Assembly (NCBI RefSeq): GCF_001429245.1
Contig: NZ_LMJE01000009.1
Coordinates: 124,001 to 188,000 of the forward strand
Length of the DNA stretch: 64,000 nucleotides
Reading direction: 5' to 3'
Source: Rhizobium sp. Root274
Lineage (GTDB): Bacteria; Pseudomonadota; Alphaproteobacteria; Rhizobiales; Rhizobiaceae
A model generated the notes under the pieces. That model was not told the origin of the DNA, made no database searches, and saw only the letters and a list, made by a program, of their open reading frames with translations. The position numbers and the translations under genes are program-made. This document shows, piece after piece, positions 12,212-47,107 of the stretch. How positions within the stretch are numbered: position 1 is the stretch's first letter; the number at the start of each line of letters is the position of its first letter.

Positions 12212-12392
12212 CCCCCCTCTGTCCTGCCGGACATCTCCCCCTCAAGGGGGGGGGTCGAAGAGCATAAGCGTAATGCCGTCATCTGATGTCGCGTTGGGGA
12301 AGCGATGAGCACGGTGCCCTAAAGAGGAGTGCCGAGATCAGCGCCCAGCCGTTCTCCCCCTTGTGGGGGAGATGGCCGGCAGGCCAGAGGGT
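12212..12392. repeat. Inverted pair of A-type mosaic palindromic repeats between rutC and rutD
   Basis: The core reading CCTCTGTCCTGCCGGACATC followed by CTCCCCCTCAAGGGGG is at 12216-12252. A reverse-oriented copy reading CCCCCTTGTGGGGGAGATGG and on through GCCGGCAGGCCAGAGGG is at 12355-12391. The unit is the same as those at 31381-31424 (inside cobN) and 39681-39722 (inside the DUF429-cobH gene). The pair faces inward around about 100 bp with no ORF. Rhizobial genomes carry such RIME/ABC-type mosaic elements; the exact class name here is from memory. Confidence 0.8.
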
Positions 12393-22013: not shown

Positions 22014-22172
22014 CCCCCTCTGTCCTTGTGCCTGAGATTGTTATCCCTTCGGCTTGGTCCGCTTTGGAAACGGGCCTCTCTCCAGAGTGCAGTCGACGCC
22101 TTGTGGTCCTTTTGCCTGAGAGTTTCCGGGGCGGTTGCTCCTTCGGCTCCGGATTGAACCGGTTTCTCCCAA
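22014..22172 (-). promoter_or_regulatory. Tandem glycine riboswitch (gcvT element)
   Basis: On the minus strand two glycine aptamers follow each other. The first runs from GGGAGAAACCGG (22170) through GCCGAAGGAGCAA to CTCAGGCAAAAGGACC (about 22105). The second runs from CTGGAGAGAGGCCC (about 22088) through GCCGAAGGGATAACAATC to CTCAGGCACAAGGACAGAGG (about 22016). These conserved blocks (CCGAAGG...CTCAGGCAAAAGGAC) define the class. It lies about 70 bp upstream of gcvT. Known role: cooperative glycine sensing that switches on the cleavage system; direction here is inferred from the family. Confidence 0.95.
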
Positions 22173-22365
22173 CAAGGTCATGTCGGCATTATCCGCCGAC
22201 ATGGGGGCTTGGCAAGAGGCCGCGTCGCTTGCGAGCAAATATTTGTCGCATGGCCTAGCTGTTTGCGCTGGCGCAAATCCCAAGGCGAAGATCGTTTCCC
22301 GCGTCATCTCGCCGCTTGGCTTGGACCATGCATCGAGATAAAGCAGGGATCGAACGGGGAAGACG

Positions 22366-28521: not shown

Positions 28522-28609
28522 GTGGCGGGCCATGCGATCGGTCGACGCTGCTCGACCGATCGGTGTCGTCAGCGCGATTGACTTGGCGCATGGCGACGCC
28601 TAATCCTTT

Positions 28610-28955
28610 TCGCGGATGGTTTTCGGTCAGCAGACAGGCTGCCCGAAGAGCAAAAGGGAATGCGAAGGCCTGGACCCAATCAGGGCAGGCCGAACGCAGC
28701 CGACCCCGCGACTGTATTGCAGAGAGGGTCTTCCATTCCGCCCGAGGTAATCGATGGCGACGGATCGCGTGGTGCGGTCGGCCGGGGAGTGCTAAGGGTG
28801 GAAAAAGCCACTGGAGTGGCGATACGAATAGCCGGGGCAGGACGCCTCTTCGTCTACGAATCGTCCGCCTCTCGTATCGCGCCACACCCCGGGAAGGCGA
28901 GGAAGACCCGCTGGCATCCGTGCCACGACCTGCGAGCCAGGAGACCTGCCGTCCG
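28610..28955 (+). promoter_or_regulatory. Cobalamin riboswitch upstream of cobU
   Basis: Conserved blocks in order: AAAAGGGAATGCG (about 28650), the core CAGCCGACCCCGCGACTGTA (about 28697-28717), GCCACTGGAGTGGC (about 28807), CCGGGAAGGCGAGGAAGA (about 28889) and the B12 box GAGCCAGGAGACCTGCC (28934-28950). Small hairpins GGGGA/TCCCC (28977-28990) and GCGGG/CCCGC (29031-29050) follow and may be part of the expression platform. Known role: adenosylcobalamin binding lowers expression of downstream synthesis genes, here cobU-cobW-cobN and beyond. The rest of 28522-29169 has no credible ORF. Confidence 0.93.
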
Positions 28956-29169
28956 TGACGGGCATCGTGCCCACCTGGGGAGAAATCCCCGTTGCCAACA
29001 CGGAGGTTGTCTTGGCGACGTTTGAAAAATGCGGGCCTTTGAGGTCCCGCAAAGGGGCTTGGCCGTTTGTGCCGGTGGCCTGGATGACCGCGCCTTTTGC
29101 GACAGCGGGTGGTGCATGCCTTGCGCAGTCCAGAGTAGTCACGCCGTTTGCTGTTGGCGGCAGTCACCC

Positions 29170-30783: not shown

Positions 30784-33700
30784 ATGCATCTGCTTCTTGC
30801 CCAGAAGGGATCGATCAGTGACGGCGACGAGGCGATTGATCTCGGCCAGACGCCGGGGGACGTGCTGTTCCTCTCGGCGGCCGACACGGAGCTTGCGGCA
30901 ATTGCCGCAGCCGTAGAGGCGAGGCGCGAGCATAGGCTAAACTGGCGGCTCGCCAGCCTGATGACGCTGAAACATCCGATGTCGGTCGATACCTATATCG
31001 AGCGCACGGCACGCCACGCGCGGCTGATCGTGGTCAGGGCGTTGGGTGGGGCGAGCTACTTTCACTATGCGCTGGAGGCCCTGCATGCCTCAGCCCGCCG
31101 CAACGGCGCGGCCATCGTCGTGCTGCCCGGTGACGACAAGCCGGACGAGGGACTGCTTCCTTTCCAGGACTGTTCGGACGGTGACCGCCAAGCGCTGTGG
31201 TCCTATCTGACCGAAGGCGGAGCTGACAATGCCGAGGCCTTCGTCTCTTATGCCGAGGCCATTCTGGCAGGATACGAGAAGCCGGAACCGGCGCGCCCGC
31301 TGCTGAAGGCCGGCATCTGGTGGCCGGGCAGGGGCGTTGTCGGGGTCGAGGAGTGGGAGAGGCTAGCGTTCCTGGCACCCCCCTCTGGCCTGCCGGCCAT
31401 CTCCCCCACGAGGGGGGAGAGCGGCATCGCGGCTGGCGGCGTGCCTCCTTCTCCCCGTTCAGGGAGAGAAGGTGCCCGAAGGGCGGATGAGGGGCAAGGC
31501 TCCGAGCAAGACCAGCCGCTCAGCCTGACCCTCTCCTTGGCTGCGGGGAGAGGGAATGTTACCCCCATCTGCTTCTACCGCGCCCTTGTCCAAAGCGGCG
31601 AAACGGCGCCCGTCGAGGCGATGGTCGAAGCCCTCAAAGCTCAGGGTCTGATCCCTCTGCCGGTCTTTGTTTCGAGCCTCAAGGACCAAGTTTCGGTCGA
31701 TACACTGCGCGCCATCTTCGCGGTTGCACCGCCAGCAGTGGTCATCAACACGACCGGTTTTGCCGTCTCGACGCCGGGGGCCGAGAAACCCTCGACGGTG
31801 CTCGATGAAACGGGTGCCGTCGTGCTGCAGGCGATCTTTTCATCTTCGCCGCGCGACACATGGGAAACCTCCAGCCAGGGCCTCAGCGCCCGCGATCTCG
31901 CAATGAGCGTCGCATTGCCGGAGGTGGATGGCCGGGTGCTGAGCCGCGCCGTGTCGTTCAAATCAATACCGCGCTTCGATGAACGGGTAGAAGCCAACCT
32001 CGTCAGCCACGAGCCCGATCCCGGCCGCATGCGCTTTGTGGCTGAACTCGCGGCGAACTGGGCAAAGCTCCGCGCGACCGAGCCCGCTGATCGCCTTGTC
32101 GCACTGGTCATGGCCAACTATCCCAATCGGGACGGACGTCTGGGCAACGGCGTTGGCTTGGATACGCCGGCCGGCACCATTGAAGTGATGCGGGCGATGT
32201 GTGGCGCAGGATATGACGTGAGCGATCTGCCTGCGGATGGCGATGCGCTCATGCAGGCATTGATGGCGGGTCCGACGAATGCAGCCCGTGACGGACGCGT
32301 AATTCGGGAACGATTTTCTCTGATCGGTTACAGAAGCTTCTTTCAAAGTCTTCCCAAAGACGTTCAACAGCGCGTCACTGCGCGCTGGGGCGCGCCGGAG
32401 GCCGACCCCTTCCATCTCGATGGTGCCTTTGCCCTGCCGCTGATGCGCTTCGGCAAGCTCATGATTGGCATCCAGCCGGCCCGTGGCTACAATATCGATC
32501 CCAAGGAAACCTACCACTCACCGGATCTCGTGCCGCCGCACGGCTATCTCGCCTTCTACGCGTTTCTGAGGCAGGAATTCGGCGCCCAGGCCATCATCCA
32601 CATGGGCAAGCATGGCAATCTCGAATGGCTGCCGGGCAAGGCACTGGCGCTGTCGGAAACCTGTTTCCCCGAAGCCGTCTTTGGGCCGCTTCCGCATCTC
32701 TATCCCTTCATCATCAACGATCCCGGCGAGGGCACCCAGGCCAAGCGCCGGGCTTCCGCCGTCATCATCGATCACCTCACGCCACCCCTGACACGGGCCG
32801 AAAGCTACGGCCCCCTCAAGGACCTGGAGGCACTGGTCGACGAATATTACGAGGCCTCTGGCGGCGATCCACGCCGGCTTGTGTTGCTCAAGAAGCAGAT
32901 CCTCGAGCTGATCGCCGATATCGGCCTCGATCAGGATGCGGGCATCGCCAAGGGCGAGGCGGAAGATCAGGCGCTGGAGAAGCTCGACGCTTATCTCTGC
33001 GACTTGAAGGAAATGCAGATCCGCGATGGGCTGCATATCTTCGGGAAGGCACCAGAGGGAAGATTGCTGACCGATCTCGTCGTCGCGCTGGCGCGGGTGC
33101 CTCGTGGTCAGGGCGAGGGTGGTGATGCGAGCCTGCAGCGGGCGATTGCTGGGGATCTCGACTTGCTTTCTCCCCTTGCGGGGGAGAGCGACCCCACTGC
33201 CAGCGGCGTGCCCGCTTCTCCCCGCTTGCGGGGAGAAGGTGCCCGGAGGGCCAATGAGGGGCAGATCTTCGATCCCCTCGACTGCGTGATGTCCGCCCCC
33301 TGGGCGGGTCCGCAACCCGAAATCCTCGCCGATCTCACCGACGCACCTTGGCGCACGGCGGGCGATACGGTTGAGCGCATCGAACTCCTTGCAGCAAAAC
33401 TCGTCGCAGGTGACCTCACGTGCCCCAAAGACTGGCCGCAAACCCGCGCCGTGCTTGCCGAAATCGACACCCGGCTGAAGCCCGCTGTCATCTCATCCGG
33501 CCCGGCCGAGCTCGAAGGCCTGCTGAAAGGCCTGTCCGGCCAGTTCGTGCCCCCCGGCCCCTCCGGCGCACCGACACGCGGTCGTCCCGACGTATTGCCG
33601 ACGGGGCGGAACTTCTACTCGGTCGACAGCCGCGCGGTACCCACGCCAGCCGCCTACGAGCTCGGCAAGAAATCGGCCGAGTTGCTGATCCAGCGATATG

Positions 33701-37415: not shown

Positions 37416-38774
37416 ATGGCGGAAAAACTCGGGATCATGGTCTGTGGCCACGGCAGCCGCAATCAGAATGCGGCGAAGGAATTTGCCGTTATCGCGGAGG
37501 CGCTGCGCGCTCGCAACCCCGACATGCCGGTCGAATATGGCTATCTCGAATTCTGCAACCCGGTGATTTCCGCCGGTCTCGACAGCCTGCGCGAGCAGGG
37601 GGTGACCCGCGTGCTGGCCGTGCCGGGCATGCTGTTTGCGGCAGGACATGCCAAGAACGACATTCCCTCGGTCCTGAACACCTACCAGGCGCAGAATCCG
37701 CGCATGGTGATCAACTACGGTCGTGAACTTGGCATCGACCTGAAGATGATCCGCGCCGCAGGCGACCGCATCCAGGCAGCTGTCGACGAGGCAAACAAAA
37801 CCCAGGGTTTTGTCGAGAAGCATGACACGCTGCTGATGGTGGTCGGTCGTGGCTCCTCCGACCCCGACGCCAATTCCAACGCCACCAAGGTCATGCGTAT
37901 GCTCTGGGAGGGCATGGGCTTTGGCTGGGGCGAAACCTGCTATTCGGGCGTGACCTTTCCACTCGTTGAGCCGGGCCTGACCCACGCCGCCAAGCTCGGC
38001 TACAAGCGCATTGTCGTCTTTCCGTACTTCCTCTTCACCGGCGTTCTGGTGAAGCGCATCTACAGCTATACCGACGAAGTTGCAGCGCGTTTCCCGGAGA
38101 TCCAGTTCGTCAAAGCAAGCTATCTCAATGATCATCCGCTGGTGCTCGAAGCCTTCCAGGATCGGGTGAAGGAAATCCTTGAGGGTGCTGCGGTGATGAA
38201 CTGCCAGATGTGCAAATACCGCGAACAGGTGCTGGGCTTCGAGGCGGATGTCGGCCAGCGTCAGGAGAGCCACCACCACCATGTCGAAGGCATTGGCGGC
38301 GGTTTGGAGAACTGTCCGTGCAAGGGCGATTGCGATGCCTCATGCCGCGATCCCGATTTCTGTCGCGAGCATGGTCTGCCCTGGACACCGGTCCACAGCC
38401 ATGCCGAGCCGGCACCGCTGAAGCCCGTGCCCGTCGATCCGGCCTTCGACTATGCGCCGTCCTTCACGCTGGGCGGCAAATATGCAGGTCTGAAGGACAA
38501 GGCGCCGGATGCTGGTCTACAGGCCGTCATGGACGCGCCGTCCTCCGGCAAGACGGCCCATCACGAGCACGGATCGAACTGTGGCTGCGGCCACCACGAT
38601 CACGTAGGTCATAATCATCACCATGATCATGGCCACCATCACGATCACAGTCACCACGGCCATAACCACGACCACGATCACAGCCATTCGCATGGCCACG
38701 ACCACCATCACCACGCGCCTTATCCCCATGCCGACCATCCGCTGGGGCCAAAGTCGATGCAGAAGAAGAAATAA
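37416..38774 (+). CDS. cbiX: Sirohydrochlorin cobaltochelatase CbiX, long form with Cys clusters and His-rich tail
   Basis: Class II chelatase that inserts Co2+ into sirohydrochlorin, the early step of the oxygen-independent route. 452 residues: two chelatase repeats (about 1-140 and 141-260) with MVCGHGSRNQNAAKEFA, AVPGMLFAAGHAKNDIP, VVGRGSSDPDANSN and VFPYFLFTGVLVKRI. After these comes MNCQMCKYREQVLG, the C-x-x-C thought to bind an Fe-S cluster in long CbiX, then a second group (NCPCKGDCDASC, FC), then a tail with about 30 His in the last 75 residues (HNHHHDHGHHHDHSHHGH). The tail probably stores cobalt or nickel. The stop overlaps the next gene by 1 bp (TAATG). Confidence 0.95.
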   Translation: MAEKLGIMVCGHGSRNQNAAKEFAVIAEALRARNPDMPVEYGYLEFCNPVISAGLDSLREQGVTRVLAVPGMLFAAGHAKNDIPSVLNTYQAQNPRMVINYGRELGIDLKMIRAAGDRIQAAVDEANKTQGFVEKHDTLLMVVGRGSSDPDANSNATKVMRMLWEGMGFGWGETCYSGVTFPLVEPGLTHAAKLGYKRIVVFPYFLFTGVLVKRIYSYTDEVAARFPEIQFVKASYLNDHPLVLEAFQDRVKEILEGAAVMNCQMCKYREQVLGFEADVGQRQESHHHHVEGIGGGLENCPCKGDCDASCRDPDFCREHGLPWTPVHSHAEPAPLKPVPVDPAFDYAPSFTLGGKYAGLKDKAPDAGLQAVMDAPSSGKTAHHEHGSNCGCGHHDHVGHNHHHDHGHHHDHSHHGHNHDHDHSHSHGHDHHHHAPYPHADHPLGPKSMQKKK

Positions 38775-40399
38775 TGCCGCTGTTCGATCGCTATCTGATC
38801 GTCGACTGGTCCGGGGCCGGGCAACCGGTAATGGGCAAGAACTCGCTCTGGGCGTGCCTCGCCCAGCGTGAGGGCGATCGGTGTGAGATCGACTGGATCG
38901 AGAATTTCCCGACGCGTCATGATTTCATGCAGCGGCTCGACGCGGTGGTCGGTGCTGCGATCGCGGAAGGCAAACGCCTGCTTTGCGGATATGATTTCGC
39001 TTTCGGCTATCCGGCGGGGACTGCCGAGCGAATGACGGGCAGCGCAGACTGGCGCGCACTCTGGCGGAAGATCGCCGAGGAGATCGAGGATGGAGCCGAC
39101 AACAGCAACAACCGCTTCGACCTCGCCTCGCGTTGGAATGCCACGCATTTTGCCGGCGAACCGCGCTTCTGGGGACGGCCGCATCAGCATGTGTATGCCG
39201 ATCTCTCCGACAAGAAGCCCCCCGCGCCGACCAAAGCACCACTTGCATTCCGCAGGTCGGAGCACTTCGCCAAGGGGGCGAAATCCGTCTGGCAGCTGAC
39301 CTACAACGGTTCCGTCGGCAGTCAGACCTTGCTCGGCATTCGCAGGCTTTCGCGTTTTCTCGACGAAAGCGGCCACGGTGAGCACATCGCCCTTTGGCCG
39401 TACGAGACTGGCTTTTCGACAACCTTCGAAAAGCCAGTCGTCTTTGCCGAGATCTACCCCTCGCTCTTCACGGTGACTTCTCAAGACGAGGTGAAGGACC
39501 AGGCGCAGGTCCGTAGTGTCGTTGAGGCTTTCGCCCGCTTCGATGCGGATGGGCGGCTGGTGACACTGCTGGATCGTCCGGCGATGCTCACGGATGACGA
39601 GGTTGCCGTTTCGATTGCGGAAGAGGGCTGGGTGCTCGGGATTGGGCATCGGGAGCTGGAGTTCGCGGGCCAAGCCCCCCCCCTCTGGCCTGCCGGCCAT
39701 CTCCCCCACAAGGGGGGAGAGCGGACTGCGGCTAGCGTCGAGACAGACTCTGTCATAAGCGCACCCCTCGACTACATCCGCGACCCCGCTGAAATCTACC
39801 GCCAGTCCTTCGCCACCATCCGCGAGGAAGCTGCACTGGACCGCTTCCCGGTCGTTCTGCAGCCGCTCGTAATCCGCCTCATCCATGCCTGTGGCATGGT
39901 CGATCTCGCCGATGATGTTAGCTGGTCCGACGGCGCCTTCGAAGCAGGAGCCGCGGCACTGGAAAAGGGCGCGCCCGTTCTTGTTGACGTCGAAATGGTC
40001 CGCCACGGCATCATCCGCCGCCTGCTGCCGACCGACAACCAGGTCCTCTGCCTGCTGAACGACGAACGCGTGCGCCCGAAGGCGGAAGAGATTGGCAACA
40101 CACGCTCCGCCGCCCAGGTCGATCTCTGGGATGAACATCTTGCCGGCGCCGTTGTCGCAGTCGGCAACGCGCCGACAGCGCTCTTCCGCCTCCTGGAGCG
40201 CATCGATGCCGGCGCGCCGAAGCCGGCGATCATTCTCGGCTTTCCGGTGGGCTTCGTCGGCGCAGCCGAAAGCAAAGATGAACTGATCGCGCATTCACGC
40301 GGCATCCCTTATATCGCTGTGCGCGGGCGCCGCGGTGGCTCGGCCATGGCGTCCGCTGCCGTCAATGCCTTGGCAGGAGGGCTCGGCACCAATGTCTGA
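38774..40399 (+). CDS. cobH: Fusion of a DUF429-like domain with precorrin-8X methylmutase CobH, joined by a repeat
   Basis: 541 residues. Residues 1 to about 298 form a DUF429-like domain (YLIVDWSGAGQPVMGKNSLW, LLCGYDFAFGYPAG, VFAEIYPSLF), a predicted RNase H-fold protein of unknown role. From about residue 333 a complete CobH follows: YIRDPAEIYRQSFATIREEA, IRLIHACGMVDLADDV with the catalytic His, ARG-type GNTRSAAQVDLW, GNAPTALFRLLE and GFPVGFVGAAESKDELI. CobH moves the C11 methyl to C12. The linker (about 299-332) is read from a palindromic repeat at 39674-39722. No in-frame ATG, GTG or TTG lies between 39635 and the CobH core, so CobH is translated as a fusion. It overlaps cobL by 8 bp. 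Confidence 0.9.
   Translation: MPLFDRYLIVDWSGAGQPVMGKNSLWACLAQREGDRCEIDWIENFPTRHDFMQRLDAVVGAAIAEGKRLLCGYDFAFGYPAGTAERMTGSADWRALWRKIAEEIEDGADNSNNRFDLASRWNATHFAGEPRFWGRPHQHVYADLSDKKPPAPTKAPLAFRRSEHFAKGAKSVWQLTYNGSVGSQTLLGIRRLSRFLDESGHGEHIALWPYETGFSTTFEKPVVFAEIYPSLFTVTSQDEVKDQAQVRSVVEAFARFDADGRLVTLLDRPAMLTDDEVAVSIAEEGWVLGIGHRELEFAGQAPPLWPAGHLPHKGGERTAASVETDSVISAPLDYIRDPAEIYRQSFATIREEAALDRFPVVLQPLVIRLIHACGMVDLADDVSWSDGAFEAGAAALEKGAPVLVDVEMVRHGIIRRLLPTDNQVLCLLNDERVRPKAEEIGNTRSAAQVDLWDEHLAGAVVAVGNAPTALFRLLERIDAGAPKPAIILGFPVGFVGAAESKDELIAHSRGIPYIAVRGRRGGSAMASAAVNALAGGLGTNV
39674..39722 (+). repeat. A-type palindromic repeat forming the DUF429-CobH linker
   Basis: CCTCTGGCCTGCCGGCCATC followed by CTCCCCCACAAGGGGGGAGA at 39681-39720, 39 of 40 identical to the copy at 31381-31420 in cobN. 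Here it is read in a different frame (PPLWPAGHLPHKGGER) than in cobN (PPSGLPAISPTRGES). Confidence 0.9.
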
Positions 40400-42528: not shown

Positions 42529-44483
42529 TGGCGGCTGCGTCGAACCTTCCGCACGTGGCCTTGAAGCCTGCTGTGCTCGTTCTAAACGAGACTGCGGCTT
42601 CCCTTGGTCGTAGGGTTGCTGCTGCGATCTCCGGCGAGCTTCACGGCGCTGCCGCGCGGGTGAGCGCCGCGGATGTTCGTTTCGTCTCGACGAAAGAGCA
42701 TGCTCAGACCCTGTTTTCCGCCGGTCGGCCGATCATCGCGGTGATGGCATCCGGTGCACTGATCCGCCTTTTAGCCCCGCTTCTGGCAGACAAGCAGTCC
42801 GAGCCGCCGGTTCTCGCCATGGCCGAAGACGGCTCTTCGATCGTGCCGCTGCTCGGCGGCCACCACGGCGCAAATGATCTCGCGCGCCGGATCGCAACCG
42901 CCCTTGGCGCCCATGCCGCGATCACGACGGCAGGCGACCTGAAATTCGGGGTGGCGCTCGACCAGCCGCCGGAAGGCTACGTGCTGGCCAATCCCGAACG
43001 GGCCAAAGCGGTGATGGCCGAACTTGTGGCGGGTGAGGGCGTGAGGCTCGACCTCCCTTCTCCCCGCTTGCGAGGAGAAGGTGCCCGAAGGGCGGATGAG
43101 GGGCCAATCGCACACCAGCAAGACCTGCCCCTCACCCCGACCTTCTCCCCGCCAGCGGGGAAAGGGGGAATTGCCGCCTGGCTCACCCTTTCAAGACTTC
43201 CATTTGAACAAGAGGCCCGCGTGACGCTCTCCGTGACCGAAAAACAGAAGACCGCAGGCGAGCTGGAACTCGTCTATCATCCTAAGACGCTGGTGCTCGG
43301 CATGGGCTGTGAACGGCATGCGAGCTCGGCCGAGGCGATTGCGCTTGCCGAGGAGGGGCTGGCCAAGGGTGGCTTTGCAAGAGAAAGCCTCGCTGCTGTC
43401 TGCTCGATCGATCTCAAGGCGGACGAAACGGCGATCCATGCGGTGGCGGCACATTTCGGCGTGCCGGCACGCTTCTTTACTGCGTCTACCTTGGAAGCCG
43501 AAGCGTCGCGCCTGAAGAACCCGTCTGAGGTGGTCTTTGCCGAAGTCGGCTGCCACGGCGTGGCGGAAGGGGCAGCACTTGCGGCTGTCGGCGCGGCGGG
43601 CGAACTTGTCGTTGAGAAGATCAAGTCAAAGGGCGCGACGGCGGCCATTGCACGCGCCGGCGACATCGTCGATCCCAAGGCGATCGGCCGTGCCCGTGGC
43701 ACGCTTTTCGTCGTGGGCATTGGTCCAGGCTCTGATGGCTGGCGTTCGCCCGAAGTGTCCCGCATGGTTGCAGCCTCCACCGATCTCGTCGGTTATTCGC
43801 TCTATCTCGATCTGCTGGGCCCGCTGGCAGACGGCAAGACGCGCCATGATTTCGACCTCGGAAAGGAAGAAGCCCGCGTCGTGCATGCCATGGAACTGGC
43901 GGGCGAGGGGAAGACGGTGGCGCTGGTCTGCTCGGGCGATGCCGGCATCTACGCCATGGCGACGCTCGTGTTTGAACTCTTCGATAAGGGCGGCATCACT
44001 GATGCTGCAAGCCGGATCGAAGTGCAGGTTTCGCCCGGCATTTCCGCACTCCAGGCCGCCGCCGCTCGCATCGGCGCGCCGCTCGGCCACGACTTCTGCA
44101 CCATCTCGCTTTCGGACCTTCTGACGCCTTGGGAGCATATCCAGCGCCGGGTGAAGGCAGCAGGCGAGGGCGATTTTGTCATCGCCTTCTACAACCCCGT
44201 CTCGATGAAGCGCCGCACGCAGCTCGCTTATGCCCGAGATGAGCTGCTGAAATACCGCCCGGGCTCGACCCCCGTTATCCTCGCCACCAACCTCGGCCGT
44301 GACGGCGAGACGGTGCGCACGGTGCCGCTCGGGTCGTTGAATGTCGATGATGTCGATATGCTGACTGTCGTGGTGGTCGGATCTTCGGAGAGCCGAACGG
44401 TGACAACGGGTGACGGCAAGACCTGGGTCTATACACCGCGAGGTTATTCGGGGAAGGCGGACACGGGGATGAAGGGCGACTGA
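42528..44483 (+). CDS. cobJ: CbiG - CobJ fusion (cobalt-precorrin-5A hydrolase-like / precorrin-3B C17-methyltransferase)
   Basis: 651 residues. About 1-172 is a CbiG N-terminal-type domain (AVMASGALIRLLAPLL, DGSSIVPLLGGHHGANDLARRIA). About 252-378 is the CbiG C-terminal/CobE domain (LVLGMGCERHASSAEAIALA, FAEVGCHGVAEGAAL). About 388-651 is CobJ (TLFVVGIGPGSDGW, STDLVGYSLYLDLLGPL, VALVCSGDAGIYAMATL, FVIAFYNPVSMKRRTQLAYA), the ring-contracting C17 methylase. Between the CbiG halves, about residues 174-215 come from a palindromic repeat (43055-43170). CbiG-CobJ fusions occur in rhizobia as I recall; the repeat insertion is the unusual part. Confidence 0.92.
   Translation: MAAASNLPHVALKPAVLVLNETAASLGRRVAAAISGELHGAAARVSAADVRFVSTKEHAQTLFSAGRPIIAVMASGALIRLLAPLLADKQSEPPVLAMAEDGSSIVPLLGGHHGANDLARRIATALGAHAAITTAGDLKFGVALDQPPEGYVLANPERAKAVMAELVAGEGVRLDLPSPRLRGEGARRADEGPIAHQQDLPLTPTFSPPAGKGGIAAWLTLSRLPFEQEARVTLSVTEKQKTAGELELVYHPKTLVLGMGCERHASSAEAIALAEEGLAKGGFARESLAAVCSIDLKADETAIHAVAAHFGVPARFFTASTLEAEASRLKNPSEVVFAEVGCHGVAEGAALAAVGAAGELVVEKIKSKGATAAIARAGDIVDPKAIGRARGTLFVVGIGPGSDGWRSPEVSRMVAASTDLVGYSLYLDLLGPLADGKTRHDFDLGKEEARVVHAMELAGEGKTVALVCSGDAGIYAMATLVFELFDKGGITDAASRIEVQVSPGISALQAAAARIGAPLGHDFCTISLSDLLTPWEHIQRRVKAAGEGDFVIAFYNPVSMKRRTQLAYARDELLKYRPGSTPVILATNLGRDGETVRTVPLGSLNVDDVDMLTVVVVGSSESRTVTTGDGKTWVYTPRGYSGKADTGMKGD
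43055..43170 (+). repeat. Palindromic repeat inside cbiG-cobJ
   Basis: CCTTCTCCCCGCTTGCGAGG at 43056 leads through GAAGGTGCCCGAAGGGCGG to GATGAGGGG (43103), a B-type unit read as SPRLRGEGARRADEG. A second inverted unit CCTTCTCCCCGCCAGCGGGG lies at 43141-43160. The frame is open throughout. Confidence 0.9.
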
Positions 44484-46957: not shown

Positions 46958-47107
46958 AAAAAATAACGCTCACCGGGGGAGGAGGTCCGGTGAGCGTTAT
47001 TGTTGAGATCGACGACTGGGAGGAGGAGTGTCGCCGATCAATCGATCCCGCATTGGGAGGAGGAGGTGCGGGTCGAAGTTCTGAGCGCCGGAAGCCGCCG
47101 CTCTGTT
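46958..47107 (-). ncRNA. αr14-family trans-acting sRNA (NfeR1-like) with three anti-Shine-Dalgarno loops
   Basis: On the minus strand three successive hairpins each expose CCTCCTCCC in the loop. First: stem around GACCCGCA/TGCGGGATC (47050-47080). Second: CGAC/GTCG closed by GATCG/CGATC (about 47008-47041). Third: a 15-bp stem at 46962-46976 with 46987-47001 followed by TTATTTTTTG, an intrinsic terminator. This layout (about 150 nt, triple CCUCCUCCC loops) is that of αr14 sRNAs such as NfeR1, which base-pair with ribosome sites of many transporter mRNAs and affect osmoadaptation and nodulation in Sinorhizobium. The 5' end is inferred from the promoter at 47115-47143. The rest of 46712-47284 shows no gene. 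Confidence 0.88.

Follow-up and report, generated by a model that had tools for sequence, protein, structure and literature searches.

A domain fused to CobH in Rhizobium: a gene junction that has changed many times, with and without a palindromic repeat

In Rhizobium sp. Root274, the precorrin-8X methylmutase CobH is the C-terminal part of a longer reading frame, and the segment joining it to the upstream domain is read from a palindromic repeat. Did the repeat make the fusion? A sequence-only reading of the window (the whole 64,000-nucleotide stretch of DNA analysed here) had answered that it did: insertion of the repeat at the boundary of a DUF429-like gene and cobH would have removed a stop and a start, leaving an obligatory chimera. 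We find that the feature is real and that its mechanism was misread. The fusion has come or gone many times within the genus, both with and without the repeat.

A reading frame with two domains

The frame at 38774-40399 is open over 541 codons from an ATG start, has no internal stop and encodes 541 amino acids. It comprises an N-terminal domain (the N-domain, residues 1-298), the repeat-read linker and a complete CobH at residues 333-541. The features discussed below are as follows.

38774..39667, plus strand: N-domain of the fusion, residues 1-298 (reading frame; AlphaFold2 model with mean pLDDT 93; NCBIfam PRK14495 match at E 7.5e-48, far under its cut-off)
39668..39769, plus strand: linker, residues 299-332, predicted to be disordered (pLDDT <50 at residues 296-332 of the fusion model)
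39678..39724, plus strand: left arm of the two-armed palindromic element, read in frame (98% identity over 47 nt to 31378-31424)
39725..39754, plus strand: remnant of the middle part of the element, the remainder of which is missing (alignment; junction 134 nt shorter than in the sister genome G009)
39755..39757, plus strand: ATA codon where relatives have the cobH ATG (ATAAGCGCACCCCTCGACTAC against ATGACCGCACCCCTCGACTAC in L012 and ATGAACGCACC in G009)
39770..40399, plus strand: CobH (precorrin-8X methylmutase) part, including the stop codon (PF02570, E 2.6e-69; PDB 3e7d, E 2.6e-77)
31378..31424, plus strand: another copy of the left arm, in frame within cobN, a gene named by eye (alignment to 39678-39724)
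12212..12391, no strand assigned: two-armed copy of the element, with arms at 12217-12241 (plus) and 12365-12389 (minus)

The C-terminal part is a complete CobH, as had been proposed. Pfam PF02570 (CobH/CbiC) matches residues 340-534 with 233.3 bits against a cut-off of 22.5, covering positions 1-194 of the model's 196; among solved CobH chains the best, 3e7d, aligns to residues 332-535. The IHACGMVD stretch is invariant in 15 aligned fusions, and precorrin-8X methylmutase activity is predicted from sequence. The absence of an in-frame ATG, GTG or TTG between 39635 and the CobH core is likewise borne out, the nearest such codon lying 46 codons upstream of the core, at 39632. In the structure predicted for the entire fusion, the low pLDDT of the linker and a pTM of 0.58 are consistent with two domains on a flexible tether. 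Two observations on neighbouring and related proteins may be added here: the upstream protein (CbiX-like, by eye; window 38500-38774) has a very histidine-rich C-terminal tail, and genome G059 codes for a second, divergent CobH with 52% identity and no N-domain match (contig C27, 10338-10955).

Junction states across the genus

A match is present in every one of the 63 genomes of the genus. The junction set consists of 45 of these, the window's genome included, in which both parts lie on the stretch fetched; left out were G038 and G039, with the N-domain at a contig edge, and 16 genomes with CobH and no N-domain on the stretch read. These 16 show that CobH does not always go together with the N-domain. 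The junction states and their frames can be seen directly in the 45 genomes. Twenty are fused through short linkers and ten through long ones; repeat arms are present in nine of the latter and absent in G023, which brings the fusions without a recognisable repeat to 21. In ten further genomes the genes are separate, overlap in an ATGA and have no repeat. The remaining five (G037, G025, G009, G030 and G008) also have separate genes; the full repeat stands immediately ahead of an unbroken ATGA, and here the element extends the upstream protein in frame to the same ATGA. Every one of the 15 separate pairs shares the ATGA, with a frame offset of 2, and all 30 fused pairs are in frame. The expectation that relatives would show separate genes without the repeat is thus borne out by ten of the 45; the 21 fusions without a recognisable repeat run counter to it and are what the sequence-only reading itself had set against its account.

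Linkers were scored by local alignment against the arms of one complete element. Arm scores of 66-124, a height reached by 0 of 300 shuffles, were obtained in 14 of the 15 long linkers, and scores of 11-21 in the 30 short linkers and G023. Weak arm-like scores occur in G004, G005, G061, G055 and G041, with 4 to 11 of 300 shuffles as high, the lowest counts (4-6 of 300) being those of the first three. A short-linker fusion could have lost the element without trace.

The fusion had also been called obligatory. This fits the window, which has no usual start near the CobH core, and fails for eight of the 30 fused junctions, which retain an ATG within the interval from six codons before to one codon after the core start (6 of 20 with short linkers, 2 of 10 with long ones).

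Loci named from a separate scan may overlap the genus set, and their counts are kept apart. Fusions without the repeat are found in Rhizobium rosettiformans, Agrobacterium vitis and Allorhizobium taibaishanense, fusions with the two-armed repeat in an uncultured Allorhizobium, a Rhizobiales isolate and Rhizobium sp. PDO1-076, and separate genes in Rhizobium wuzhouense, Rhizobium sp. TH135 and Rhizobium paknamense. Nine more distant loci are fused through linkers without repeat signal (L013, L015-L021 and L027), and two distant loci have separate genes (L060 and L075).

The palindromic element

The repeat in the window's linker represents the left portion of a larger element with two arms. Relatives have this element complete, its arms convergent: CCCCCCTCTG... 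and ...CAGAGGGGGG. The earlier statement that the linker is read from a palindromic repeat also present inside cobN holds: the 47-nt alignment between the two copies contains a 40-nt core with one difference. With up to three mismatches allowed, a 25-nt core occurs four times in the window (three exact and one with two), against none in 100 shuffles, and a 75-nt repeat query gave 48 whole-genome matches at E<=10. The dinucleotide TA stands just outside both ends of the element at the junctions of G025, G002 and G008. Among genomic copies, at least three pairs have TA immediately beyond the C run on either side, and other pairs lack it at one or both ends; no unoccupied site with a single TA was found.

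Rfam at gathering scores gave no family at the linker. Its matches in the window are a cobalamin riboswitch (28600-28967), a glycine riboswitch (22094-22181) and the ar14 sRNA (46961-47081). The RNA fold of the linker arm has an energy of -35.2 kcal/mol (z -1.84), which 10 of 200 shuffles equalled, and plays no part in the argument. Several families of palindromic repeat are translated in frame within cobN (31378-31505 and 33180-33272) and cobJ (43049-43171), genes named by eye; in-frame repeats thus recur in the cob cluster.

How the fusion arose

The rpoB-rpoC tree was built for 43 genomes, leaving out G036 (partial rpoB match) and G048 (no rpoB match). In the tree and pair tests, the linker state is defined by length (a gap of at least 88 nt) and not by a repeat match, and G023 is therefore included without having arms. 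On this tree, both the fusion state and the long-linker state require at least 10 changes.

The window's sister on the same tree is G009 (SH-aLRT 99), in which the element is complete and the genes are separate. Relative to G009, the window's junction is 134 nt shorter (gaps of 102 against 236 nt), a difference that three does not divide. What it lacks is the remainder of the element's middle together with the right arm and the stretch leading to the ATG, which itself has become ATA. The frame-changing shortening and the change from ATG to ATA favour a deletion inside an existing element, and on this alignment the window's fusion most likely came about through such a deletion together with the loss of the ATG. 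Two other element-bearing junctions are fused by small indels. In G002, a separate case, there is a short indel at the ATGA; in G001, there is one extra C in the C run of the right arm, with the cobH ATG kept, and this C is possibly a sequencing error.

The order of events that we would reconstruct begins with the N-domain gene and cobH as adjacent B12-cluster genes overlapping in an ATGA, at a boundary that would tolerate insertion and frame change. A two-armed palindromic element would lodge in the 3' end of the upstream gene, where it is read through in frame and leaves the ATGA intact, and small indels could then bring the two frames together and fuse the genes. In the lineage of the window, a deletion within the element would have removed the right arm, and the old cobH start would have changed from ATG to ATA; other lineages carry the same fusion without a recognisable element. 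The predicted product is a CobH bearing the N-domain on a flexible linker. Taken as a whole, this explanation appears to us quite probable.

The ATGA is intact in the five genomes with the full repeat and separate genes, so insertion alone removed neither stop nor start there, and this makes it very unlikely that insertion of the repeat at the gene boundary was itself what made the fusion. The window's linker is indeed repeat-derived, and two pairs of sister genomes (G045/G043 and G049/G028) differ in both traits, being fused with the repeat against separate without it; but 21 of the 45 junctions are fused without a recognisable repeat, and the fused share is equal among long-linker (10 of 15) and short-linker (20 of 30) junctions. 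In 10 independent pairs differing in linker state, fusion differs the same way in about five and the opposite way in about two (median p 0.45). This pair test demonstrates no link between repeat and fusion, and a weak positive one is possible.

A stronger competitor is the idea that the junction states are alleles which homologous recombination in the cob cluster has passed between species, true gains or losses of repeat or fusion being few. The N-domain, CobH and rpoB-rpoC trees differ, the first two conflicting in places with the third; one short separate tail is common to G028, G043 and G040, and one fused allele to G049 and G045, both across species lines. Alleles may therefore have passed from one species to another, and the order of events would then be less clear. 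Even on the genes' own trees (45 genomes), however, fusion still needs at least 9 changes and the long linker 11-12; exchange of whole genes thus cannot explain everything, and exchange of the junction alone could still have contributed. We regard this alternative as doubtful overall. It is unlikely that, besides the fusion, the single frame also yields a free CobH initiated at an internal codon, for instance the ATA at 39755: the retention of an ATG near the core start in the eight fused junctions described above speaks for such a start, but in the window the old cobH ATG is now ATA, and the nearest usual in-frame start is the distant one at 39632. We hence retain the reading in which overlapping genes received the element and were later fused by indels or a deletion, and elsewhere fused without it.

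The N-terminal domain and its gene context

The identification of residues 1-298 as DUF429-like does not stand. DUF429 (PF04250, cut-off 23 bits) is rejected by Pfam, genome search and profile comparison alike: Pfam gives no DUF429 match to the N-terminal part at E<=5 and none to 21 N-domain homologues at E<=1, a search of this genome with the DUF429 model found nothing at E<=1e-15, and profile-profile comparison of the N-domain with five DUF429 members returns a probability of 0.3%. No literature was found on precorrin-8X methylmutase together with DUF429. By sequence comparison, the one named family with a strong relationship is NCBIfam PRK14495, whose unknown domain (model positions 167-445) matches the N-domain with 163.6 bits; this whole-protein score is under the cut-off of 596, the match being limited to the unknown domain. 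All 21 homologues match PRK14495 as well (best E 5.6e-69).

The AlphaFold2 model of the N-domain suggests an RNase H-like fold, which the weak scores make a lead and not proof. With VIA-align, a Holliday junction resolvase, CasPi and a terminase come closest, with Z up to 6.9 (rmsd 3.2-3.8 over 115-148 aligned residues), where a Z below 8 may mean a mere common arrangement. Foldseek gave no match at E<=0.001 among 546, and a search of PDB sequences with an N-domain profile gave five matches at E<=10, all to short or partial stretches, with a best E of 0.015. RNase H-like enzymes are expected to carry metal-binding acidic residues where strands 1 and 4 end and close to the last helices. Across the 21 sequences, D74, E226 and D242 are invariant and D11 is nearly so; all are placed at strand or helix ends of the predicted model and, by their conservation, would suit a metal-dependent enzyme. 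Both parts of the fusion are under purifying selection, as seen in ten pairs with dN/dS of 0.09-0.21 for the N-domain and 0.04-0.10 for CobH. In G004, G056, G058 and G060, the N-domain match is interrupted at query residues 216-220, where 69 nt stand against three query residues (about 60 extra nt).

Within the class Alphaproteobacteria, the N-domain is present at E<=1e-8 in 35 of 240 genomes. In 10 of the 25 genomes with the strongest matches (E<=4.2e-55), a gene for CobH (six), CobU (three) or MobB/MoeA (one, G216) lies no more than 200 nt from it; the MoeA and MobB rows taken in this typing were those able to share a contig with the N-domain. The CobU cases, G063, G122 and G129, have this gene 23-26 nt from the N-domain in place of CobH. 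G216 (L281, 1450-3558) presents a molybdopterin version, with the N-domain in one frame with MoeA and MobB just upstream. In two further genomes, the N-domain adjoins CbiB (G246) or CobQ (G226), so that a cobalamin or molybdopterin gene stands directly beside it in 12 of the 25. This context supports a putative role of the N-domain in cofactor synthesis. The remaining 13 have none of CobH, CobU, MobB and MoeA within 200 nt; in four of them, the N-domain is near a look-alike of the CCA-adding enzyme (by eye). A Pfam scan of the neighbours covered six loci (L269, L270, L275, L276, L279 and L281) and found no family in L275 and L276.

A wider reading joins these strands. The N-domain would be a so far unrecognised factor, RNase H-like, in the synthesis of corrin and molybdopterin cofactors, repeatedly tethered to enzymes of the pathways (to CobH here, to MoeA in G216 and, by name, to MobB in PRK14495), and the cobH junction would be an evolutionary switch that has gone between separate and fused at least 10 times in one genus, partly by way of a mobile palindrome. 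We offer this combination tentatively, as possible but falling somewhat short of an even chance.

Relation to known systems

The locus is worth following both as a natural junction series and for its uncharacterised cofactor-linked domain. The series separates gene fusion from repeat insertion, with all four combinations among close relatives, and it therefore provides a test of how bacterial genes fuse from overlapping ones. The second strand points to a domain whose gene context links it to B12 and, in isolated cases, to molybdenum cofactor synthesis.

Palindromic elements inside genes and the fusion of overlapping genes are already known kinds of event. By analogy, the element here looks mobile and would resemble Rhizobium-specific intergenic mosaic elements (RIME) and MITEs. 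As described in PMC2229807, Rickettsia palindromic elements (RPE) and other bacterial MITEs occur in frame inside protein genes; they are small and palindromic, have TA ends in several families and may, in one protein that was tested, be neutral or mildly harmful. The window's element is like these in being a small palindrome with a frame fused to host genes. It differs in lying at the boundary of two overlapping genes, where repeat and fusion occur in all four combinations among 45 related genomes. RIME1 consists of two palindromes. RIMEs are listed among annotated repeats, and such rhizobial sequences are called intergenic, in PMC2573895. Our element is likewise rhizobial, repeated and palindromic, a comparison made by description; unlike the intergenic RIMEs, some of its copies lie inside coding frames.

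Two protein families provide the closest parallels for the fusion. In NCBIfam PRK05782, by name a sirohydrochlorin cobaltochelatase/CobH fusion, CobH likewise forms the C-terminal part of a B12 protein with two domains; the partner there is another protein, and the window's fusion reaches 113.4 bits where the cut-off is 298, with only its CobH part matching. PRK14495, by name a fusion of MobB and an unknown domain, has in that domain the likeness to the N-domain, whereas its partner is MobB of molybdopterin synthesis and not CobH.
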